A stretch of DNA of 32,963 bases, taken from NCBI GenBank assembly GCA_016763795.1, contig JAESTF010000358.1:1-32963 (forward strand). The letters run 5' to 3'. Shown piece after piece: positions 4,310 through 32,098 of this stretch (within the stretch, counting starts at the first letter, position 1; every line of letters starts with the position of its first letter). The position numbers and the translations under genes were made by a program. The stretch comes from Flavobacteriales bacterium. GTDB lineage: Bacteria; Bacteroidota; Bacteroidia; Flavobacteriales_E; Vicingaceae. The notes under the pieces are model-generated. The model had not been told where the DNA came from, ran no database searches, and saw only the letters and a program-made list of their open reading frames with translations.

Positions 4310-6060
4310 ATGATTAAAATATTATCAGATTTTTATTACCACCAATTAAATAATAACCCTAAAATAGATGCTTTCACCCAAAAAGAGGATGGAAAGTGGG
4401 TTTCTCTTTCATCAGAAGCATTTATAAATAAAGCCAAAAAATTTAGCATAGGGCTATTAGAGTTGGGTCTTAAGAAAGGGGATAAAGTAGCGGTAATTTC
4501 TAATAATAGAACAGAATGGCATTTAACCGATTTAGCGGTTCAGCAAGTAGGTATTGTAAATGCGCCATTATATCCAAATATAACAGAAGCAGATTATGAG
4601 TACATTTTAAACGATAGTGGAGCTAAAGTTGTTTTTATTTCGGATGAAGAAATTTTAGCTAAAATTTTAAATATAAAAGATAAAGTATCAACTTTAGAAC
4701 ATATTTATATGTTTAATAAGGTTGCAGGACAAAAACATTATACAGAGCTGTTAAGTGATAAAATTAATGAAGAAGCACTTGAGGCTGCAAAGAATACAAT
4801 TGATGAAGATGATTTAGCAACATTAATTTACACTTCAGGTACAACAGGAAACCCTAAAGGAGTGATGCTAACACATAGAAATTTAGTAAGTAATGTTTTG
4901 GGTGAAGAAGATCGTTTGCCAGTTGGTGAAAATCATAAAGCATTAAGTTTTTTACCCCTTTGTCATGTTTTTGAACGAATGTTAGATTACTTATATATTT
5001 ATAAAAGTGTATCAATTTATTATGCAGAATCGATAGAGAAAATTGGAGATAATTTAAAAGAAGTGAAACCACAATTTTTTGCTACAGTACCAAGATTGTT
5101 AGAAAAAGTGTATGATAAAATTGTAGCAAAAGGAACAGATTTAACAGGGATTAAAAAAGGGTTATTCTTTTGGGCATTAGAGTTAGGATTAAAATATGAT
5201 CCTATGGTTAGTGGTGGAGCAATGTATAACTTTAAATTAAAAATTGCGAATAAATTAATTTTTAGTAAATGGAGAGAAGCCTTAGGTGGAGAAATTATCG
5301 CAATAGTTTCAGGAGGAGCAGCCTTACAAGCCAGGTTAGCAAGAGTATTTACTTCAGCTCAAATTCCGGTGTTAGAAGGTTATGGCTTAACAGAAACCTC
5401 TCCAGTAATTGGTGTAAATAGCTTATTGCCAGGCGGAACAATGATTGGCAGTGTTGGAAAAGTGTTGGAAAATTTAGATGTAAAAATTGCAGAAGATGGA
5501 GAGATAATAGTAAAAGGTCCGAGTATTATGAAAGGATATTACAATCAACCAGAATTAACTAAAGAAGTAATTGATGAACAAGGATATTTCATACAGGTGA
5601 TATAGGTGTTTTAGTTGATGGTAAGTATTTGAAAATTACTGACAGGAAAAAAGAAATTTTTAAAACCTCTGGGGGTAAATATATCGCACCACAAGTGATG
5701 GAGAACAAGTTTAAAGAATCTCGATTTATTGAGCAAATAATGGTGATAGGTGAAGGACAGAAAATGGCAGGAGCTTTTATTCAACCAGATTTTTTATTTT
5801 TAAAAGGGTGGTGTGAAAGAAAGAAAATTAGTTATACATCTGATGCTGAAATAGTGAAAAATGAAACAGTTATTGCTAGGTTTGAAAAAGAGATGGTTGC
5901 CTTAAATACAGACTTCTCTAATTATGAGCAAATAAAAAAGTTTGAACTAATTGGAGCAGCTTGGAGTATTGATAATGGAGAGCTAACCCCAACATTAAAA
6001 CTAAAGCGTAAAAACATTTTAGCAAGAAACCAAGAGCTATTCAATAAAATATATAGTTAA
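4310..6060 (+). pseudogene. Long-chain acyl-CoA synthetase (AMP-forming), single-base frameshift
   Basis: The two parts together make a 583-residue ANL-family long-chain fatty acid:CoA ligase, which activates fatty acids to acyl-CoA through an acyl-adenylate. The first part (4310-5605, 431 residues) has the P-loop YTSGTTGNPKG at 174-184 and YGLTETSPV further on. It then reads GYF and runs into TAG at 5603. The expected continuation, HTGDIG and the hinge motif KITDRKKEI, is intact in the +1 frame from 5590 and runs to TAA at 6060. One base is missing at the T run 5587-5589; adding one T restores the frame and the family's normal length. The C-terminal domain is required for catalysis, so if the shift is real the enzyme is dead. 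No other lesion is visible, which favours a sequencing or assembly error or a very recent mutation. A gap of 109 bp separates it from the next gene. Confidence 0.9.
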
Positions 6061-6142
6061 GACGGTATTTTCTATTTTGAAATTTCATTTTAGAAATGCA
6101 TTCATAAGGTGGAATAGAATAGAATTAGCCTTCTTTTTTACA

Positions 6143-6150
6143 TATATTTG
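6143..6150 (+). promoter_or_regulatory. Bacteroidota -7 promoter element (TATATTTG)
   Basis: The sequence matches the TAnnTTTG consensus and lies 19 bases before the ATG at 6170. This supports the 6170 start for the DUF1573 lipoprotein and a new transcription unit after the acyl-CoA synthetase gene. No clear -33 TTTG is visible. Confidence 0.5.
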
Positions 6151-6169
6151 CATCCTCAAAATTATAAAT

Positions 6170-6637
6170 ATGAAAAAGATATTACTTCCAATTGCTGTGG
6201 GAATAGCATTGTTAGCTTCTTGCGGAGAAAATGCTCAAGAAGAAACATTAAATACAGATATTATTGACAACCCTATTTCTGCAGAAAGCTCAGCTGAGGA
6301 TGAAGGTAAACGCCCTTTCTTTGAATTTGTAGAAGAAATAAAGGAATTCGGAACAATTACACAAGGAGAGACTGTCTCCATGACATTTCGTTTCCGTAAT
6401 GTTGGTCAATCTAATTTAATAATATCTTCTGCCCAAGGAAGTTGTGGATGTACTGTTCCTGAATGGCCAAAAGAACCAATTAAACCAGGAGAAGAAGGTA
6501 AAATTAACATAATCTTTAATTCAACAGGTAAGCAAGGTTTACAAAATAAGACAATTACATTAATTGCCAATACAATCCCTAATACTAAGGTAATTGCAAT
6601 AAAAGGAGAAGTTTTGGTGCCAAATACAAATCAATAA
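6170..6637 (+). CDS. DUF1573 domain lipoprotein
   Basis: The 155-residue protein starts at ATG 6170. An in-frame TTG at 6077 would give a longer product, but the later ATG directly begins a lipoprotein signal (MKKILLPIAVGIALLAS followed by Cys18) and sits just after a promoter element. The mature protein has an acidic linker and then one DUF1573 domain (about 55-150), an Ig-like fold common in Bacteroidota, with GETVSMTFRFRNVG, SCGCTVPEWP and the GxQGLQNKTI strand. The two cysteines of SCGCT are typical of the family. Location is probably periplasmic or outer membrane; molecular function is unknown. The neighbours yajC (28 bp downstream) and coaE form a recurrent Bacteroidota arrangement. Confidence 0.88.
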   Translation: MKKILLPIAVGIALLASCGENAQEETLNTDIIDNPISAESSAEDEGKRPFFEFVEEIKEFGTITQGETVSMTFRFRNVGQSNLIISSAQGSCGCTVPEWPKEPIKPGEEGKINIIFNSTGKQGLQNKTITLIANTIPNTKVIAIKGEVLVPNTNQ

Positions 6638-6665
6638 TTTATAGAAATAACTTAATAGAAAAGAA

Positions 6666-7000
6666 ATGAAAGGAATAGGTATTTTATTACAAGCTCAAAC
6701 AGATGGAGCAACAGGTGGTGGATTTGGAATGGAGCAAATATTAATGTTTGGAGCCATTGGTTTAGTGTTTTATTTTTTTATGATAAGACCACAAATGAAA
6801 AAACAAAAAGAAGCCAAGAAATTTAAAGAAGTTTAGTGAAAGGAACTAAAATAGTTACCATTGGAGGAATTCACGGAAAGATTGTTGAATTAAAGGATGA
6901 TACCGTTATGATAGAAATAGAAGGAGGGAATAGGTTGAAGTTAGAAAAAACAGCAATTTCTAAAGAATTTGCTGCTGAAGAGATGGAACAAAAAAAATAG
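6666..7000 (+). pseudogene. yajC: YajC preprotein translocase subunit, single-base frameshift
   Basis: The start at ATG 6666 gives a short Gln/Gly-rich N-terminus, a membrane helix (ILMFGAIGLVFYFFM) and the YajC signature IRPQMKKQKE. The frame hits TAG at 6834. In the next frame from 6833 the protein continues as LVKGTKIVTIGGIHGKIVEL and ends at TAG 6998-7000. Adding one T in the run at 6832-6834 joins both halves into a 111-residue protein, the normal YajC length. YajC associates with SecDF in protein export. The truncated product would keep the membrane helix but lose the whole soluble domain. The defect is of the same kind as that in the acyl-CoA synthetase about 1.2 kb upstream, which suggests a systematic homopolymer error. 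The gene is probably co-transcribed with the DUF1573 gene. Confidence 0.9.
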
Positions 7001-15339: not shown

Positions 15340-15346
15340 TAACAAG

Positions 15347-15526
<180 letters not shown>

Positions 15527-15614
15527 TCACTTACTTTTTTTGAGATTTCTTTTTTAAGAAAAAAAATAACAACATAGAACTTATAGTGAGGTAGAGAGTT
15601 TTTTCAAGGATTTT

Positions 15615-15681
15615 GTTTAACGTTCAAGCCAAATATTCATATTTGCAAGCGAAGCGAAAATATGGGATTTAGGTGTTGCTG
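15615..15681 (-). repeat. attC-like imperfect palindrome downstream of the serine hydrolase
   Basis: On the minus strand the element begins CAGCAAC and ends GTTAAAC (a full match to the GTTRRRY core, bases 15615-15621). Between them, CC-T-AAAT pairs with ATTT-GG with one unpaired T, and CATATTT pairs perfectly with AAATATG around a 13-base loop. A 67-base length, AAC/GTT ends, a folded centre and an extrahelical base are the layout of integron attC sites. The left core CAGCAAC fits the RYYYAAC consensus poorly. It starts about 10 bases after the hydrolase stop, where a cassette attC would be. It could also be a MITE-like palindrome. Confidence 0.45.
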
Positions 15682-15691
15682 GCAGTAGTTA

Positions 15692-17218
15692 TTATTTCAT
15701 TTCTACTTCAATTATTCCTTGTCCGTTTTCTTCTAAATATTTCAGTAAAACTTCTTGAAAAGCTTCAGTCCCATTGTCGCTATTAGTGAAAATTATAAGG
15801 CCTTGTTTTGTCTTTGGAAGCATAAAAGCAATTGTATGTACACCAATGTCATCACCTCCATGCACTAAAGTAATATCACCATTTTTATTAATGTTTTCAT
15901 CAATCCAGAAACCTAAACCCCAATATTTAGAAGAATTAATTCTTACTTGTTCTTCTGACATCTCTTTTTGAAGCGATTCTGAAAGCTCTGCCCCATTAAT
16001 TATATACAATATAAACTTAGTGTAATCTTCTATGGTAGTCAATAAATCGTCCGCTGCAGAAACGTTATTATTTTTATAGGTATCATATAGTTCACCACCC
16101 GCAGTGTGCCATTTAGCAAATCTAGATTCGTCCATTTTTTTGTTCCAATAAAACCGAGTATCTTTCATTTTCAGAGGTTTGAAAATTAAGGAGTCAGCTA
16201 ATTTCTCAAGTGAAATTTTGAATTTGTTTTCAAGAGCTTTTTTTAGATATTCATATCCTTCTCCTGAATATTGATAATTTGTACCAGGGTTAAAATGGAA
16301 TGTCAATTTGTTTTCTGATTCTTTATCAAACCAACGCCAATTAGAAAATCCTGTTTGATGGCTTAATATGTGTCTAGTAGTAAGAGTTTTGTACCTATCA
16401 TCATTTTTTACATCCGGATCAATCCAATAATGATAAATAGGTTCGTCTAAACTCCAGTTACCATTACTTACTAATTTCAAAGTAATCAAAGTAACAATTG
16501 GTTTAGTTAATGAAGCTACATTCCAAATTGTGTTCTTCGGTGCTTTCCTCCCTTTTTCTAATTCACCAAAAACATTAATTTGCTTAATTTTTCCATCTTC
16601 AATATATCCAATTCCCAATGCAGGAATATTCTTTTGTTTTAACCACTTTTCTGTTTCGTCCTTGTCTTTGAATAATAACTCTTGGTTAATTGGTTTGTCG
16701 AAATCTTTATGGTCATAACTTAAACCTTTACTCAATTTCCATTTTCCATTTTCTAGGATCCATACATGAGTAAACTTTGCGATACTTGTTAGGTATTCTT
16801 TGGAGTTTTCCTCCAAAGAATAAAAGCTATGGACACCATTTTGAATAGCTCCATAAAGTACCGTATTGTTATGTAAAGGGTAAATTTCTGTTTTTGTTGA
16901 ATCTAATTTTCTTATGGCTTTATATTCAATGTTACAAACACTACTTTTAATATTGGAAATAAACTCGGATTTAGATTTTACAATCCCTGCTTTGTCGTGA
17001 TAAAACTTAAAACTTTCACTAACTAAATTTTCAAATTGATTCATATCACATTTGTTAAATCCAAGGTTAAAAAGAAGACTGTCTTTTGCTTTTATAGATT
17101 TGTATAGTTCAGATGATTTTTCAACTTGTGCAGTTGCTAGTACTGTAAGAAATAATAAATTAATTAATAGAAAATGGATTTTCATTGTTTGAATTTTATC
17201 GTTTGAGGCAAAATTCAT
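15692..17218 (-). CDS. Serine hydrolase (beta-lactamase/PBP-like) with N-terminal DUF4440-like domain
   Basis: The frame opens at 17218 (508 residues), but ATG at 17185 (residue 12, MKIHFLLINLLFLTVLATAQ) begins a signal peptide and is the likelier start. Numbering from 17218: residues 40-170 resemble a DUF4440/SnoaL-like domain, ending with the typical THVWILENGKWKLS. Residues 180-490 form a class C beta-lactamase-type serine hydrolase domain with nucleophile motif SLTK (236-239), second motif YSG (317-319) and HGG (452-454). Members include esterases, D-aminopeptidases and penicillin-binding-like enzymes; the substrate cannot be told. Export to the periplasm is expected. The XRE regulator gene lies 62 bp upstream on the same strand with a tandem repeat between them. 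An attC-like palindrome follows the stop codon, and a GAPDH relic lies beyond it. Confidence 0.88.
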   Translation of the reverse strand: MNFASNDKIQTMKIHFLLINLLFLTVLATAQVEKSSELYKSIKAKDSLLFNLGFNKCDMNQFENLVSESFKFYHDKAGIVKSKSEFISNIKSSVCNIEYKAIRKLDSTKTEIYPLHNNTVLYGAIQNGVHSFYSLEENSKEYLTSIAKFTHVWILENGKWKLSKGLSYDHKDFDKPINQELLFKDKDETEKWLKQKNIPALGIGYIEDGKIKQINVFGELEKGRKAPKNTIWNVASLTKPIVTLITLKLVSNGNWSLDEPIYHYWIDPDVKNDDRYKTLTTRHILSHQTGFSNWRWFDKESENKLTFHFNPGTNYQYSGEGYEYLKKALENKFKISLEKLADSLIFKPLKMKDTRFYWNKKMDESRFAKWHTAGGELYDTYKNNNVSAADDLLTTIEDYTKFILYIINGAELSESLQKEMSEEQVRINSSKYWGLGFWIDENINKNGDITLVHGGDDIGVHTIAFMLPKTKQGLIIFTNSDNGTEAFQEVLLKYLEENGQGIIEVEMK

Positions 17219-17248
17219 TTATATTAAATAAATTTATCGCTAAAATAA

Positions 17249-17270
17249 CCCGACAAATTCCCGACAATAA
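17249..17270. promoter_or_regulatory. Tandem CCCGACAA repeat, candidate operator
   Basis: CCCGACAA occurs at 17249-17256 and again at 17260-17267, an 11-bp period that places both copies on one DNA face. It lies between the XRE regulator gene and the serine hydrolase it precedes, where the hydrolase promoter should be. It is GC-rich in an AT-rich gap. No third copy is visible upstream of the regulator. Confidence 0.4.
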
Positions 17271-17280
17271 ATTGGCGTGT

Positions 17281-17820
17281 CTATAAAAAACTGAAATTCA
17301 GATTAATGTATAGCTTACTGGCTTTCTCAATTTCTATTGTATTTCTAAGGATAATATATAGGTTTATTATTACTAATAGAAGCATTGTTAGTGGAACTAT
17401 CTGATTACTTAAAGAAAGCCATTTACCCAAAAAGATAACTATTAACAAAATGACTGGAAATGATAAAGTCCATAATATTTGAATAGAAACAATTTGTTTT
17501 GTTACAGTATTTATTTCCTTTTTCCAACGCATAATAATTAATGGTATTATAATACTCCCGAAAGGAATTATTAATAATAATATGGAGGATAAATTAATAT
17601 ATTTGATGAGTTTTTTGTTGTCTTTTACTGATTCAACTTTTTCTTTTAGTAAATCATCTTTACTTATCTCTAAAGCCTTCGACAAGGCATTTAAAGTATA
17701 ACCTTTAGGTCTTATTCCAGATTCTACCCTTTGAATAGTCCTTACAGACACGCCTGATTTAGCAGCCAATTCTTCTTGTGTTAAGTTCAATTTTTCTCTG
17801 TACTCTAAAAGTTGTGACAT
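17281..17820 (-). CDS. XRE-family HTH regulator with C-terminal membrane segments
   Basis: Residues 1-60 are a Cro/C1-type helix-turn-helix (YREKLNLTQEELAAKSGVSV, then RTIQRVESGIRPKGYTLNAL). The C-terminal 100 residues contain three strongly hydrophobic segments, at about 76-95, 108-130 and 138-158, so the regulator is predicted to be anchored in the inner membrane with its DNA-binding domain in the cytoplasm. This HTH-plus-helices architecture is seen in Bacteroidota; the signal is not known. The gene precedes the serine hydrolase on the same strand by 62 bp, with a tandem octamer in the gap, so local control of the hydrolase is a reasonable inference. The last residues (NLNFSFL) are close to the stop, and there is no sign of truncation. 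Confidence 0.88.
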   Translation of the reverse strand: MSQLLEYREKLNLTQEELAAKSGVSVRTIQRVESGIRPKGYTLNALSKALEISKDDLLKEKVESVKDNKKLIKYINLSSILLLIIPFGSIIIPLIIMRWKKEINTVTKQIVSIQILWTLSFPVILLIVIFLGKWLSLSNQIVPLTMLLLVIINLYIILRNTIEIEKASKLYINLNFSFL

Positions 17821-17916
17821 TATTCAAGTTTAAGTTTTATAGTTTGAGTATTTTTAAATTACTACCAATGTACTTGTTGCTCGTGTTTTAATGCGATTTA
17901 CATTTTACGGAGAAAA

Positions 17917-29907: not shown

Positions 29908-30729
29908 CTACTTTACGATATTTAATAGATTTTTAATTTTATCAGTTTGTATAAAATCAGGGAACTTATCTACTCCTATTTTATTATCACTTTTTGATTT
30001 TACTTCCCAAATAGTAATAAAAATATTATTATCATGAGCAATAGAAACTTGCTCTTTAGTAATGTTTTTTGTAGAATTAGAAATTCCATAAAGATTGAAA
30101 TCTTGAGCAATTTTCATGCCTTTATTAAAATCATCACGATTAATAAATAACTTATAATTGCTATTTTCTAGCTGTAATAGTTTTAAAAAATTAATGTCTT
30201 GAGATTCGATAAAAGAATTACCTAAACTATATTTATTAATAGTAGAATTAAGAGCATTAACATAATCGTTATAGTACTTTGTTTTATCAGCATTTTTAGG
30301 GTATAATTTACAATCAAATGTAAAAATATAAGAGTGTAAGTTTTTTATATTGGAAAAAAGCTGGTCAAGCGAAATGATACTGTAATTAGAATATAGAGGC
30401 TTACTGTATCTTCCATATTTGATTTCTGACCAATTTAAAGACCTTACTAATCCTCTGATATTTGTACTTGTAGATAAATCATGATCATGAAAAGCAATTA
30501 GAACATTATCTTTAGTTAGTTGAATATCCAATTCTGTGCCATCGGAACCTAAATTTAAAGATTTTAGTAACGATTCGAATGAGTTACGGGGGTAGATGTT
30601 TATATTTCCCATACCAGAATGGCCAAAAGCAGAAACTTTATTTCCATTAAGATTCTTTACTTTAACCTTTTCAGACTTACTACATGATAATGATATTACT
30701 AAAATGATATATATACTTGTTTTTTTCAT
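29908..30729 (-). CDS. GDPD-like phosphodiesterase lipoprotein (copy A)
   Basis: The 273-residue precursor has a lipoprotein signal (MKKTSIYIILVISLSC, Cys16). The glycerophosphodiester phosphodiesterase TIM barrel follows: GHSGMGN (about 37-43, family HRG), NSFESL, the catalytic-site GSDGTELDIQLTKDNVLIAF and HDHDLSTSTNIRG. The first His-Arg pair of the usual HRG motif is changed to HSG, so the Arg that contacts phosphate is missing. The acid pair in TELD and the HDHDL His are kept. A diester headgroup hydrolase is likely but substrate and activity are unsure. It is paralogous to the gene at 31259-32098, and an outer-membrane barrel gene lies between them. The gap to the barrel gene is 9 bp, so all three appear co-transcribed. 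Confidence 0.85.
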   Translation of the reverse strand: MKKTSIYIILVISLSCSKSEKVKVKNLNGNKVSAFGHSGMGNINIYPRNSFESLLKSLNLGSDGTELDIQLTKDNVLIAFHDHDLSTSTNIRGLVRSLNWSEIKYGRYSKPLYSNYSIISLDQLFSNIKNLHSYIFTFDCKLYPKNADKTKYYNDYVNALNSTINKYSLGNSFIESQDINFLKLLQLENSNYKLFINRDDFNKGMKIAQDFNLYGISNSTKNITKEQVSIAHDNNIFITIWEVKSKSDNKIGVDKFPDFIQTDKIKNLLNIVK

Positions 30730-30738
30730 CTTTATAAC

Positions 30739-31266
30739 TTAAAAAGCATAACCCACAGAAACCCCTCCCCAGTGACGATAATCGCTATAAAATTCGATTA
30801 TTGGAGTATAGTTTAATCTAAACATAAAGCCCCCTTTCTTTTTCTGGTAACGGTAACCAATAGTGAAATTTGTGTGAACATTAAAAACACGTTCAGGTTT
30901 ATAATTTTTTTTACTCGCTTGTACTATATTAGAGATTACTTGTCCCGCACCTAACTCTAAATTATGCTTATTACCATAAAGTGCATTAATTGAAATTGGA
31001 ATAATTATATCCGGATTAAACTTAGTGGTATAATCAGTAAAGTTTAAGGTACTAATTCCTGCACGTACACCAACTCTAATGGAACTGAAATTAAAAATAG
31101 TTCTCTCATAATTTAAAGAACCATAACCTCCAATACCTAAAATATCTAATGAAACAGAGTTGTTTGCAGTTGTGACTGTTGAGTCAGTTTGTGCAAAAGA
31201 AACGGAGTAGCTGAATAAAAATAAGATGAGGATGTAAATGTTGTATATCATAATAAATTTAATCAA
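30739..31266 (-). CDS. Predicted outer-membrane beta-barrel protein
   Basis: This 175-residue precursor has a signal peptide; either ATG 31266 or ATG 31251 (MIYNIYILILFLFSYSVSFAQ) can start it, and the latter gives the cleaner signal. The mature part alternates short amphipathic strands (SLDILGIGGYGSLNYERTI, RVGVRAGIST, NFTIGYRYQKK) and ends in VSVGYAF with the C-terminal Phe typical of barrel proteins. Its size fits an 8-strand barrel. I do not recognise a named family. The frame overlaps the end of the upstream GDPD gene by 8 bases and is 9 bp from the downstream one. Confidence 0.8.
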   Translation of the reverse strand: MIKFIMIYNIYILILFLFSYSVSFAQTDSTVTTANNSVSLDILGIGGYGSLNYERTIFNFSSIRVGVRAGISTLNFTDYTTKFNPDIIIPISINALYGNKHNLELGAGQVISNIVQASKKNYKPERVFNVHTNFTIGYRYQKKKGGFMFRLNYTPIIEFYSDYRHWGGVSVGYAF

Positions 31267-32098
31267 CTAAATGTATTAAGTTTTTAATTTTATCAGACTG
31301 AATAAAATCAGGATTTTTTCTAATCCCATCTTTATTAGCACTTGTTGAATGTATTCCCCAAATAGTTACAAATAAGTTGTTGTCATGAGCAATTCTAATT
31401 TGTTCTTTAGTAATATCTTCGGTAGAAATAGTTATACCAAATAAATTAAGTCGGATGGCAGTTTCTAATCCATTATCAAAAGATGAAGGGTATATAAAAA
31501 GCTTATAGTTACTATTTTTTAATTGTAATAATTTTAAAAAATCTTCATCTTGAGATTCTATATAGGAATTATTTAATAAATTGTATTTAGTTATTATTTT
31601 AGATAATTCATTAACAAAAGAGTTCAAATATTTATTCATGTTAGATGAACTCGAATTTAATTTAATATCGAACGTATATTTATAGGTATTTAGGTTTTCT
31701 ACATTTGCAAAAAAGTGATCCAACGTAATAATATTATAATTTGTATAGATAGGATTTTTATATACTGCTTTTTGTATTTCAGCCCAAGTTAATGAATGAA
31801 TTAAACCATTAATTGTTGTGTTTTCTGATAAATCAATATCATGAAAAGCAACTAAAATATTATCTTTTGTTAGTTGTACATCAAGCTCTGTACCATCAGC
31901 ACCAAAATTTAAGCATTTAAGTAACGATTCATAACAATTGAGCGGGTAGGTACTTCTATTACCCATTCCTGCGTGCCCATAAGCGTCAATTTTATTACCA
32001 TTTAAGTTATTGATAGTGAAGTTTTCATCTTTACTACAAGAAACAATAGTAATAGTTAATAAAATAAATGTTTTATAAATGATTGGTTTTAGTTTCAT
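31259..32098 (-). CDS. GDPD-like phosphodiesterase lipoprotein (copy B)
   Basis: The 279-residue precursor has a lipoprotein signal (MKLKPIIYKTFILLTITIVSC, Cys21). The GDPD barrel motifs are GHAGMGNRSTYPLNCYESL (first motif HAG rather than HRG), GADGTELDVQLTKDNILVAF and HDIDLSENTTINGL. It aligns over its length with the protein at 29908-30729, sharing DGTELD(V/I)QLTKDN, SQD-NFLKLLQL-NSNYKLFI and the C-terminal PDFIQ(S/T)DKIKNL. The two arose by duplication. Copy B keeps HDIDL in place of HDHDL. As the first gene of the minus-strand cluster it probably carries the promoter. The 188-bp gap to the next gene, on the other strand, is AT-rich and shows no clear TAnnTTTG. Confidence 0.85.
   Translation of the reverse strand: MKLKPIIYKTFILLTITIVSCSKDENFTINNLNGNKIDAYGHAGMGNRSTYPLNCYESLLKCLNFGADGTELDVQLTKDNILVAFHDIDLSENTTINGLIHSLTWAEIQKAVYKNPIYTNYNIITLDHFFANVENLNTYKYTFDIKLNSSSSNMNKYLNSFVNELSKIITKYNLLNNSYIESQDEDFLKLLQLKNSNYKLFIYPSSFDNGLETAIRLNLFGITISTEDITKEQIRIAHDNNLFVTIWGIHSTSANKDGIRKNPDFIQSDKIKNLIHLVD

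Follow-up and report, generated by a model that had tools for sequence, protein, structure and literature searches.

The window, meaning the whole stretch of 32,963 nt analysed here from a 75% complete draft genome of a Flavobacteriales bacterium, carries on its minus strand a gene for an HTH regulator, then a serine hydrolase gene and, directly behind the hydrolase stop codon, the site under study. The elements of this region are listed below; R1 and R2 are two covariance models introduced later.

15621–17868, minus strand: proposed cassette of two genes, bounded by left border and GTT core (border pairing 9/9 with R''; start of homology; gene pair found elsewhere)
17860–17868, minus strand: core of the left border, TTGGTAGTA, with A in front where G is usual, complementary to TACTGCCAG of R''
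17281–17820, minus strand: HTH regulator, HTH_3 plus DUF4870 (Pfam)
15692–17218, minus strand: serine hydrolase, Beta-lactamase family (PF00144) with DUF4440 (Pfam)
15613–15691, minus strand: cassette-end site, covariance-model match (R1 27.7 bits; R2 18.1 bits, filters off)
15678–15687, minus strand: R'' core TACTGCCAGC (alignment with two homologous loci, L032 and L033, and with the site family)
15629–15673, minus strand: L''/L' outer stem, CCtAAAT (15673–15667) with ATTTGG (15634–15629), extrahelical T (read from sequence)
15664–15658 with 15644–15638, minus strand: L''/L' inner stem of 7 bp, CATATTT with AAATATG (read from sequence)
15615–15621, minus strand: R' core GTTAAAC (read from sequence); the bases after its G would be those of the recipient site, with the crossover placed by the rule seen in arrays

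The gene pair is flanked by ordinary aminotransferases, no recombinase gene was seen among the window ORFs, and Rfam and tRNA scans returned nothing. Just past the site, a frame-broken piece of a GAPDH-like gene (C-terminal; 15344–15512, minus strand) was observed. Elsewhere (29908–32098, minus strand), two similar ORFs of 273 and 279 aa surround a 175-aa ORF in what looks like a local duplication.

The site was originally predicted to be the attC-like end of a gene cassette, on the basis of a palindrome with attC cores. Its parts are indeed present: the GTTAAAC core lies at 15621–15615 of the minus strand, the inner stem and the outer stem with its extrahelical T can both be formed, and the site directly follows the hydrolase ORF. 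The palindrome itself, taken as a convincing signal, does not rise above chance. Folded as single-stranded DNA, the site reached -4.6 kcal/mol compared with a shuffled mean of -4.9 (z=0.16), 108 of 200 shuffles folded at least as well, and a second shuffle test gave z=0.2 for one strand and 0.7 for the other; the mean z of the cassette-site family described below is -2.2 to -2.6, against ∼0.2 here. The AAC proposed as the opening core does occur on the minus strand (15677–15675), but the R'' that matches the family is instead TACTGCCAGC at 15687–15678, homologous to TACTGCCAAC in the alignment of homologues. An early reading of R'' as CAGCAAC was dropped once these homologues were aligned. The window R' fits GTTRRRY, whereas its R'' does not fit RYYYAAC and has CCAGC where the family has CCAAC.

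A whole-site DNA search of the own genome and 199 relatives found no second full copy, only short chance pieces, and plasmid searches with the site DNA or the hydrolase DNA gave nothing useful. Two weak matches in the own genome, both at gene ends, share only the first ∼16 bases of the site, AACTACTGCCAACAAC. It was this R'' motif, and not the whole-site search, that opened the way to a family. The own genome contains the pattern AACTACTRCCARCAAM at four positions and its reversed control at none, while a degenerate pattern allowing two mismatches stayed at control level. In several other genomes the motif lies behind the stops of unrelated genes together with a matching right half, in the form of GTT cores such as CGTTGTGC or CGTTAGGC 75–205 bases downstream; the remaining pattern matches sit within genes and reflect chance. 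The L'' and L' arms differ among copies yet remain complementary, with 90% of pairs formed compared with 30–43% when one arm is slid.

A covariance model built from eight sites with the window left out (R1) scored the window site (15613–15691) at 27.7 bits, the runner-up in the window reaching 17.0, and had matches in 68 of 297 relatives and in most own-family genomes. A second model, R2, was built from 60 sites of other genomes, and its alignment formed 96% of pairs (22–41% when slid) with a covariation of 0.486 (0.117 when shuffled), values that lean towards structure because the alignment was fitted to it. Such covariation of the arms is consistent with recombination of one folded strand. 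R2 gave the window site 18.1 bits with filters off and left it unreported under default filters. At E≤1, R2 matches numbered 46 in the own genome, 57 in the genome of L032 and 21 in that of L033; the lack of a second site noted originally holds for the window and not for the genome. Directly past the hydrolase stop, the minus strand reads TAACTACTGCCAGCAACACCTAAATCCCATATTTTCGCTTCGCTTGCAAATATGAATATTTGGCTTGAACGTTAAAC, in which AACTACTGCCAGCAAC corresponds to the left half of the family; 15 of 16 bases agree with the family motif at exactly the expected place. Judged by sequence, the window site is a member of this Bacteroidota cassette-end family.

Family sites form arrays in one orientation, with eleven R2 sites at L180, seven at L181, and five each at L178 and L186. 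They start a median of 1.5 nt past an ORF stop, 63/82 falling between -7 and 37 nt from it compared with 26/410 random positions, and their commonest length is ∼140 nt. These properties bear on whether the sites are a MITE, which the original prediction had allowed for, a REP-like repeat or a transcription terminator preferring gene ends. Repeated, intergenic and hairpin-forming elements would suit such a reading, but neither the tight placement past stops nor the single orientation along arrays is expected from it, the copies are divergent, and it offers no reason for the complementary ends of one cassette across a gene that are described next. The many near-identical copies unrelated to gene ends that would mark a repeat of this kind did not appear: sites hug stops, and that of the window has no second full copy. 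For the family as a whole this reading is already refuted, and we give it next to no probability.

An integron cassette begins with TTRRRY at its left end and closes with R'' at its right end, and the two rejoin in the excised circle. We examined this relationship in 43 cassettes lying between neighbouring sites, the rule having played no part in site finding. The four bases before AAC were complementary to the four after GTT at the left border of the same cassette, perfectly so in 77% (mean 3.44). The same four bases matched the R' of their own site with a mean of 1.91 and random pairs with a mean of 2.01, and 0/5000 permutations reached 3.44. A second set of eleven pairs, ten of them on contigs of the own genome (including three shared with the first set) and the other on a Persicobacter plasmid, gave a mean of 2.9 compared with 1.7 for random pairs. 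Apart from the end of a recombining cassette, no repeat known to us would lead one to expect complementarity between R'' and the left border.

The same rule located a left border in the window, 48 nt before the HTH start, where TTGGTAGTA pairs with TACTGCCAG at 9/9 positions, two of them G-T pairs; 9/9 pairing with R'' occurs at 7 of 65,908 window positions. The nearest relatives of the hydrolase outside the own genome are at L032, in a Crocinitomicaceae MAG (78% identity), and L033 (69%), and homology to both starts exactly at position 17868 (z=4.7 and 6.1 within the cassette, -0.9 and 0.2 beyond it, respectively). The HTH and hydrolase genes occur together at L032, and the hydrolase is accompanied by an HTH remnant at L033. 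Both homologues carry AAACTACTRCCAACAAA immediately behind the stop codon, so the R'' motif directly after the stop is common to all three loci, and L033 has a complete cassette-end site scoring 74 bits with R1. Since the predicted border was found and homology begins there, the region 15621–17868 is, on this sequence evidence, a solo two-gene cassette of an integron-like system. Among 12 genomes of the genus the hydrolase adjoins that aminotransferase in none, and an empty site was not found there, gene order not being conserved. Solo sites far from a recombinase also exist elsewhere, for example in the one-contig genome G176.

Even with a genuine family, the window site might resemble it by chance, or might be a conserved 3' UTR of the hydrolase with no relation to it, as its weak fold and its R2 score of only 18.1 bits could suggest. 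The placement of the 15 matching motif bases, the motif in two homologues, one of them with a complete site, and the independent left border all speak against this, and we hold it to be very unlikely. The site is better described as a divergent, worn copy that is perhaps no longer active; given the low R2 score, the weak hairpin, the CCAGC in R'' and the A before the left border, we do not assume that it still recombines.

Upstream of the arrays, and in the same orientation, lies a gene for a tyrosine recombinase of ∼380 residues. Among the matches listed, order and orientation agreed on all 12 contigs with a recombinase and a site within 10 kb (G010:C5, G275:C13, G018:C38, G029:C37, G032:C14, G027:C9, G034:C8, G169:C7, G283:C1, G036:C10, G285:C20 and G131:C4). 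R1 sites occurred in 21/26 genomes with the close recombinase clade (at least 400 bits; co-occurrence counted by hand) compared with 47/271 others (Fisher P = 6e-11). Several genomes have sites and no recombinase match above threshold, and the more distant enzyme at L178 was included by linkage only. The residues R, K, HxxR, H and Y can be read from the recombinase sequence. It scores above the cut-off of NF040815 (XerA-type) and below that of the integron integrase model TIGR02249 (183.6 of 265 bits); its best profile and structure matches by sequence were NF040815 ('site-specific tyrosine recombinase/integron integrase') and PDB 4a8e and 5hxy. The ∼43-residue IntI insert is missing, as the catalytic arginine motif and HxxR are 92–93 residues apart compared with 135 in IntI1, and the same gap is visible against IntI4. 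The first 100 residues matched no Pfam family. In a tree with IntI1 and XerD, the long branches of these two prevented placement of the clade with respect to IntI.

These observations weigh on whether the cassettes are classical ones after all, that is, an IntI-dependent attC cluster without integrase (CALIN) whose IntI was lost or missed in drafts. The cassette logic of R'' and left border is the same, the window R' fits the classical core, and IntI has been reported for some Bacteroidota (PMC8618304, PMC9024848). On the other side, a different recombinase adjoins the arrays, and the R-box consensus, which served as a basis of the original prediction, is rare in the family (GTTRRRY in 16/94 R', RYYYAAC in 9/94 R''). 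The proposed search for an IntI gene returned no TIGR02249 match at E≤1e-40 in 46 own-family genomes, a result that is weak alone, as no control genome gave a match at that threshold either. We therefore consider classical cassettes unlikely. What stands of the attC-like cassette end is its function, argued for by ends that unrelated genes have in common, arrays in one orientation, the complementarity of R'' to the left border and the linkage to a recombinase; the palindrome with attC cores does not provide its basis.

In the close clade, most readable loci have a hairpin that begins within ∼25 nt of the recombinase stop, ends in YGTT (e.g. TGCGAATAAGTGCACCAGTGCACTTATTCGGTTGTTAGC) and is followed by a gene; this hairpin is likely the attI. 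In the own genome, the single intact recombinase gene lies at the end of C153, and a broken one is found on contig C365, with a site further down the same contig. Many draft contigs break just past the recombinase stop (e.g. G008:C103, G009:C146, G011:C143 and C153 itself), as expected if hairpin and arrays defeat assembly, so arrays are probably undercounted.

Several further loci carry related elements. Similar genes, dihydroorotase-like by translation, lie at L186 (after 3921) and L183 (near 7546), directly behind the attI-like hairpin of G029 (GTTAGCGGCAAT) and behind a cassette site of G275 (GTTAGCGGAAAT). It is as though a single cassette had changed places, the gene keeping the bases that follow GTT. 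On a mobilizable plasmid of Flagellimonas marinaquae (L229, 5902–6754; NZ_CP092416.1), adjacent to erm(F), a dihydrofolate-reductase-family gene (6044–6583, minus strand) sits between a strong site (5902–6042, 63.9 bits) and a weak one (6610–6754, 18 bits). Two complete replicons, the Persicobacter sp. JZB09 plasmids L227 and L228 (CP012862.1 and CP012852.1), encode recombinase relatives of 40–44% identity with sites 3–8 kb downstream in the same orientation, and would make good experimental material.

A gene annotated 'xerD' precedes tet(X3). On Acinetobacter plasmids (L231, 2552–4702, NZ_CP104735.1; L250, 4052–6190, NZ_CP041297.1), its product has 53% identity to the linked recombinase over residues 145–381. 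An attI-like hairpin ending in CCACTTGTTATGTGCC lies between 'xerD' and tet(X3), and behind tet(X3) there is a half site (CTACTAACAAGCAGTTTTGCAATAGTGGGG; R2 only 11 bits) that is cut off before the next gene. By sequence, this region looks like recombinase, attI and first cassette of a Bacteroidota platform.

We conclude that the window site is probably where a mobile cassette of two genes, belonging to an integron-like Bacteroidota system with a linked XerA-like recombinase, recombines at its 3' end. In the model that we propose, a cassette would consist of TTxxxx, the gene or genes, xxxxAAC, a spacer, L'', a loop, L', a second spacer and G. The linked recombinase, tied to the sites by correlation, would recognise the folded site with L'' paired to L', presumably as a single strand, and cross over at the GTT core, the exact base being predicted from the array rule. 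Excision would bring the cassette ends together and restore the pairing of R'' with R', and the circle could insert behind the attI-like hairpin of the recombinase gene, behind the site of a further cassette or, occasionally, at a lone site far away, as in the window. Cassettes may still be moving in this way. A broader reading, which we regard as evenly balanced, is that Bacteroidota possess a phylum-wide form of gene capture of integron design without IntI, with a XerA-derived recombinase that has an N-terminal domain of its own and whose gene end is fused to an att hairpin, and with sites recognised by structure, and that it also releases single cassettes onto chromosomes and plasmids, including resistance genes such as tet(X3).

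If these readings hold, cassette capture would be common in Bacteroidota and have been overlooked because the usual search requires an IntI domain. Genes such as tet(X3) might then originate from the system, which would also provide a natural test for any dependence of structure-guided recombination on the IntI insert. Integrons had been regarded as nearly absent from Bacteroidota. IntegronFinder 2.0 reported a single complete integron for Bacteroidetes proper, that of Salinibacter (PMC9024848), and we found no earlier description of a Bacteroidota cassette system in open-licence PubMed Central. The nearest experimental parallel, which supports such a system, comes from Riemerella anatipestifer, also of the Bacteroidota, in which aph(3')-IVb integrates without homology and takes along 27 bp of its 5' UTR plus a 140-bp stretch on the 3' side with an attC-like fold (PMC13148043). 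By this description the element resembles the sites reported here, ∼140 being also their commonest length; unlike our analysis, that paper names neither a recombinase nor an array, an attI or a core rule (PMC13148043). Our data may thus offer a candidate enzyme and site for this unexplained integration (PMC13148043).

Among other known systems, cassettes away from an integrase, which are defined with the classical attC model, share this position with the window cassette. The Bacteroidota recombinase differs from XerA-type enzymes in its linkage to cassette arrays and its N-terminal extension; known XerA acts on dif. Another close likeness is to integrons with IntI, attI and attC, both class 1 and sedentary chromosomal. 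Shared with these are tandem arrays in one orientation with a tyrosine recombinase at one end (the window cassette being solo), one or few genes per site, sites behind stop codons, arms conserved in structure rather than sequence, and R'' and R' rejoined across the cassette, in line with the complementarity of R'' to the left border in the 43 cassettes and at 9/9 positions in the window. In contrast to integrons, the Bacteroidota recombinase has no insert near patch III and is longer by ∼100 residues at the N terminus, its gene has the direction of the cassettes and the attI-like hairpin behind its stop, and its sites have a different R-box consensus from RYYYAAC and GTTRRRY. In conclusion, the Bacteroidota system works like an integron, and classical membership fails on IntI and the R-box consensus.
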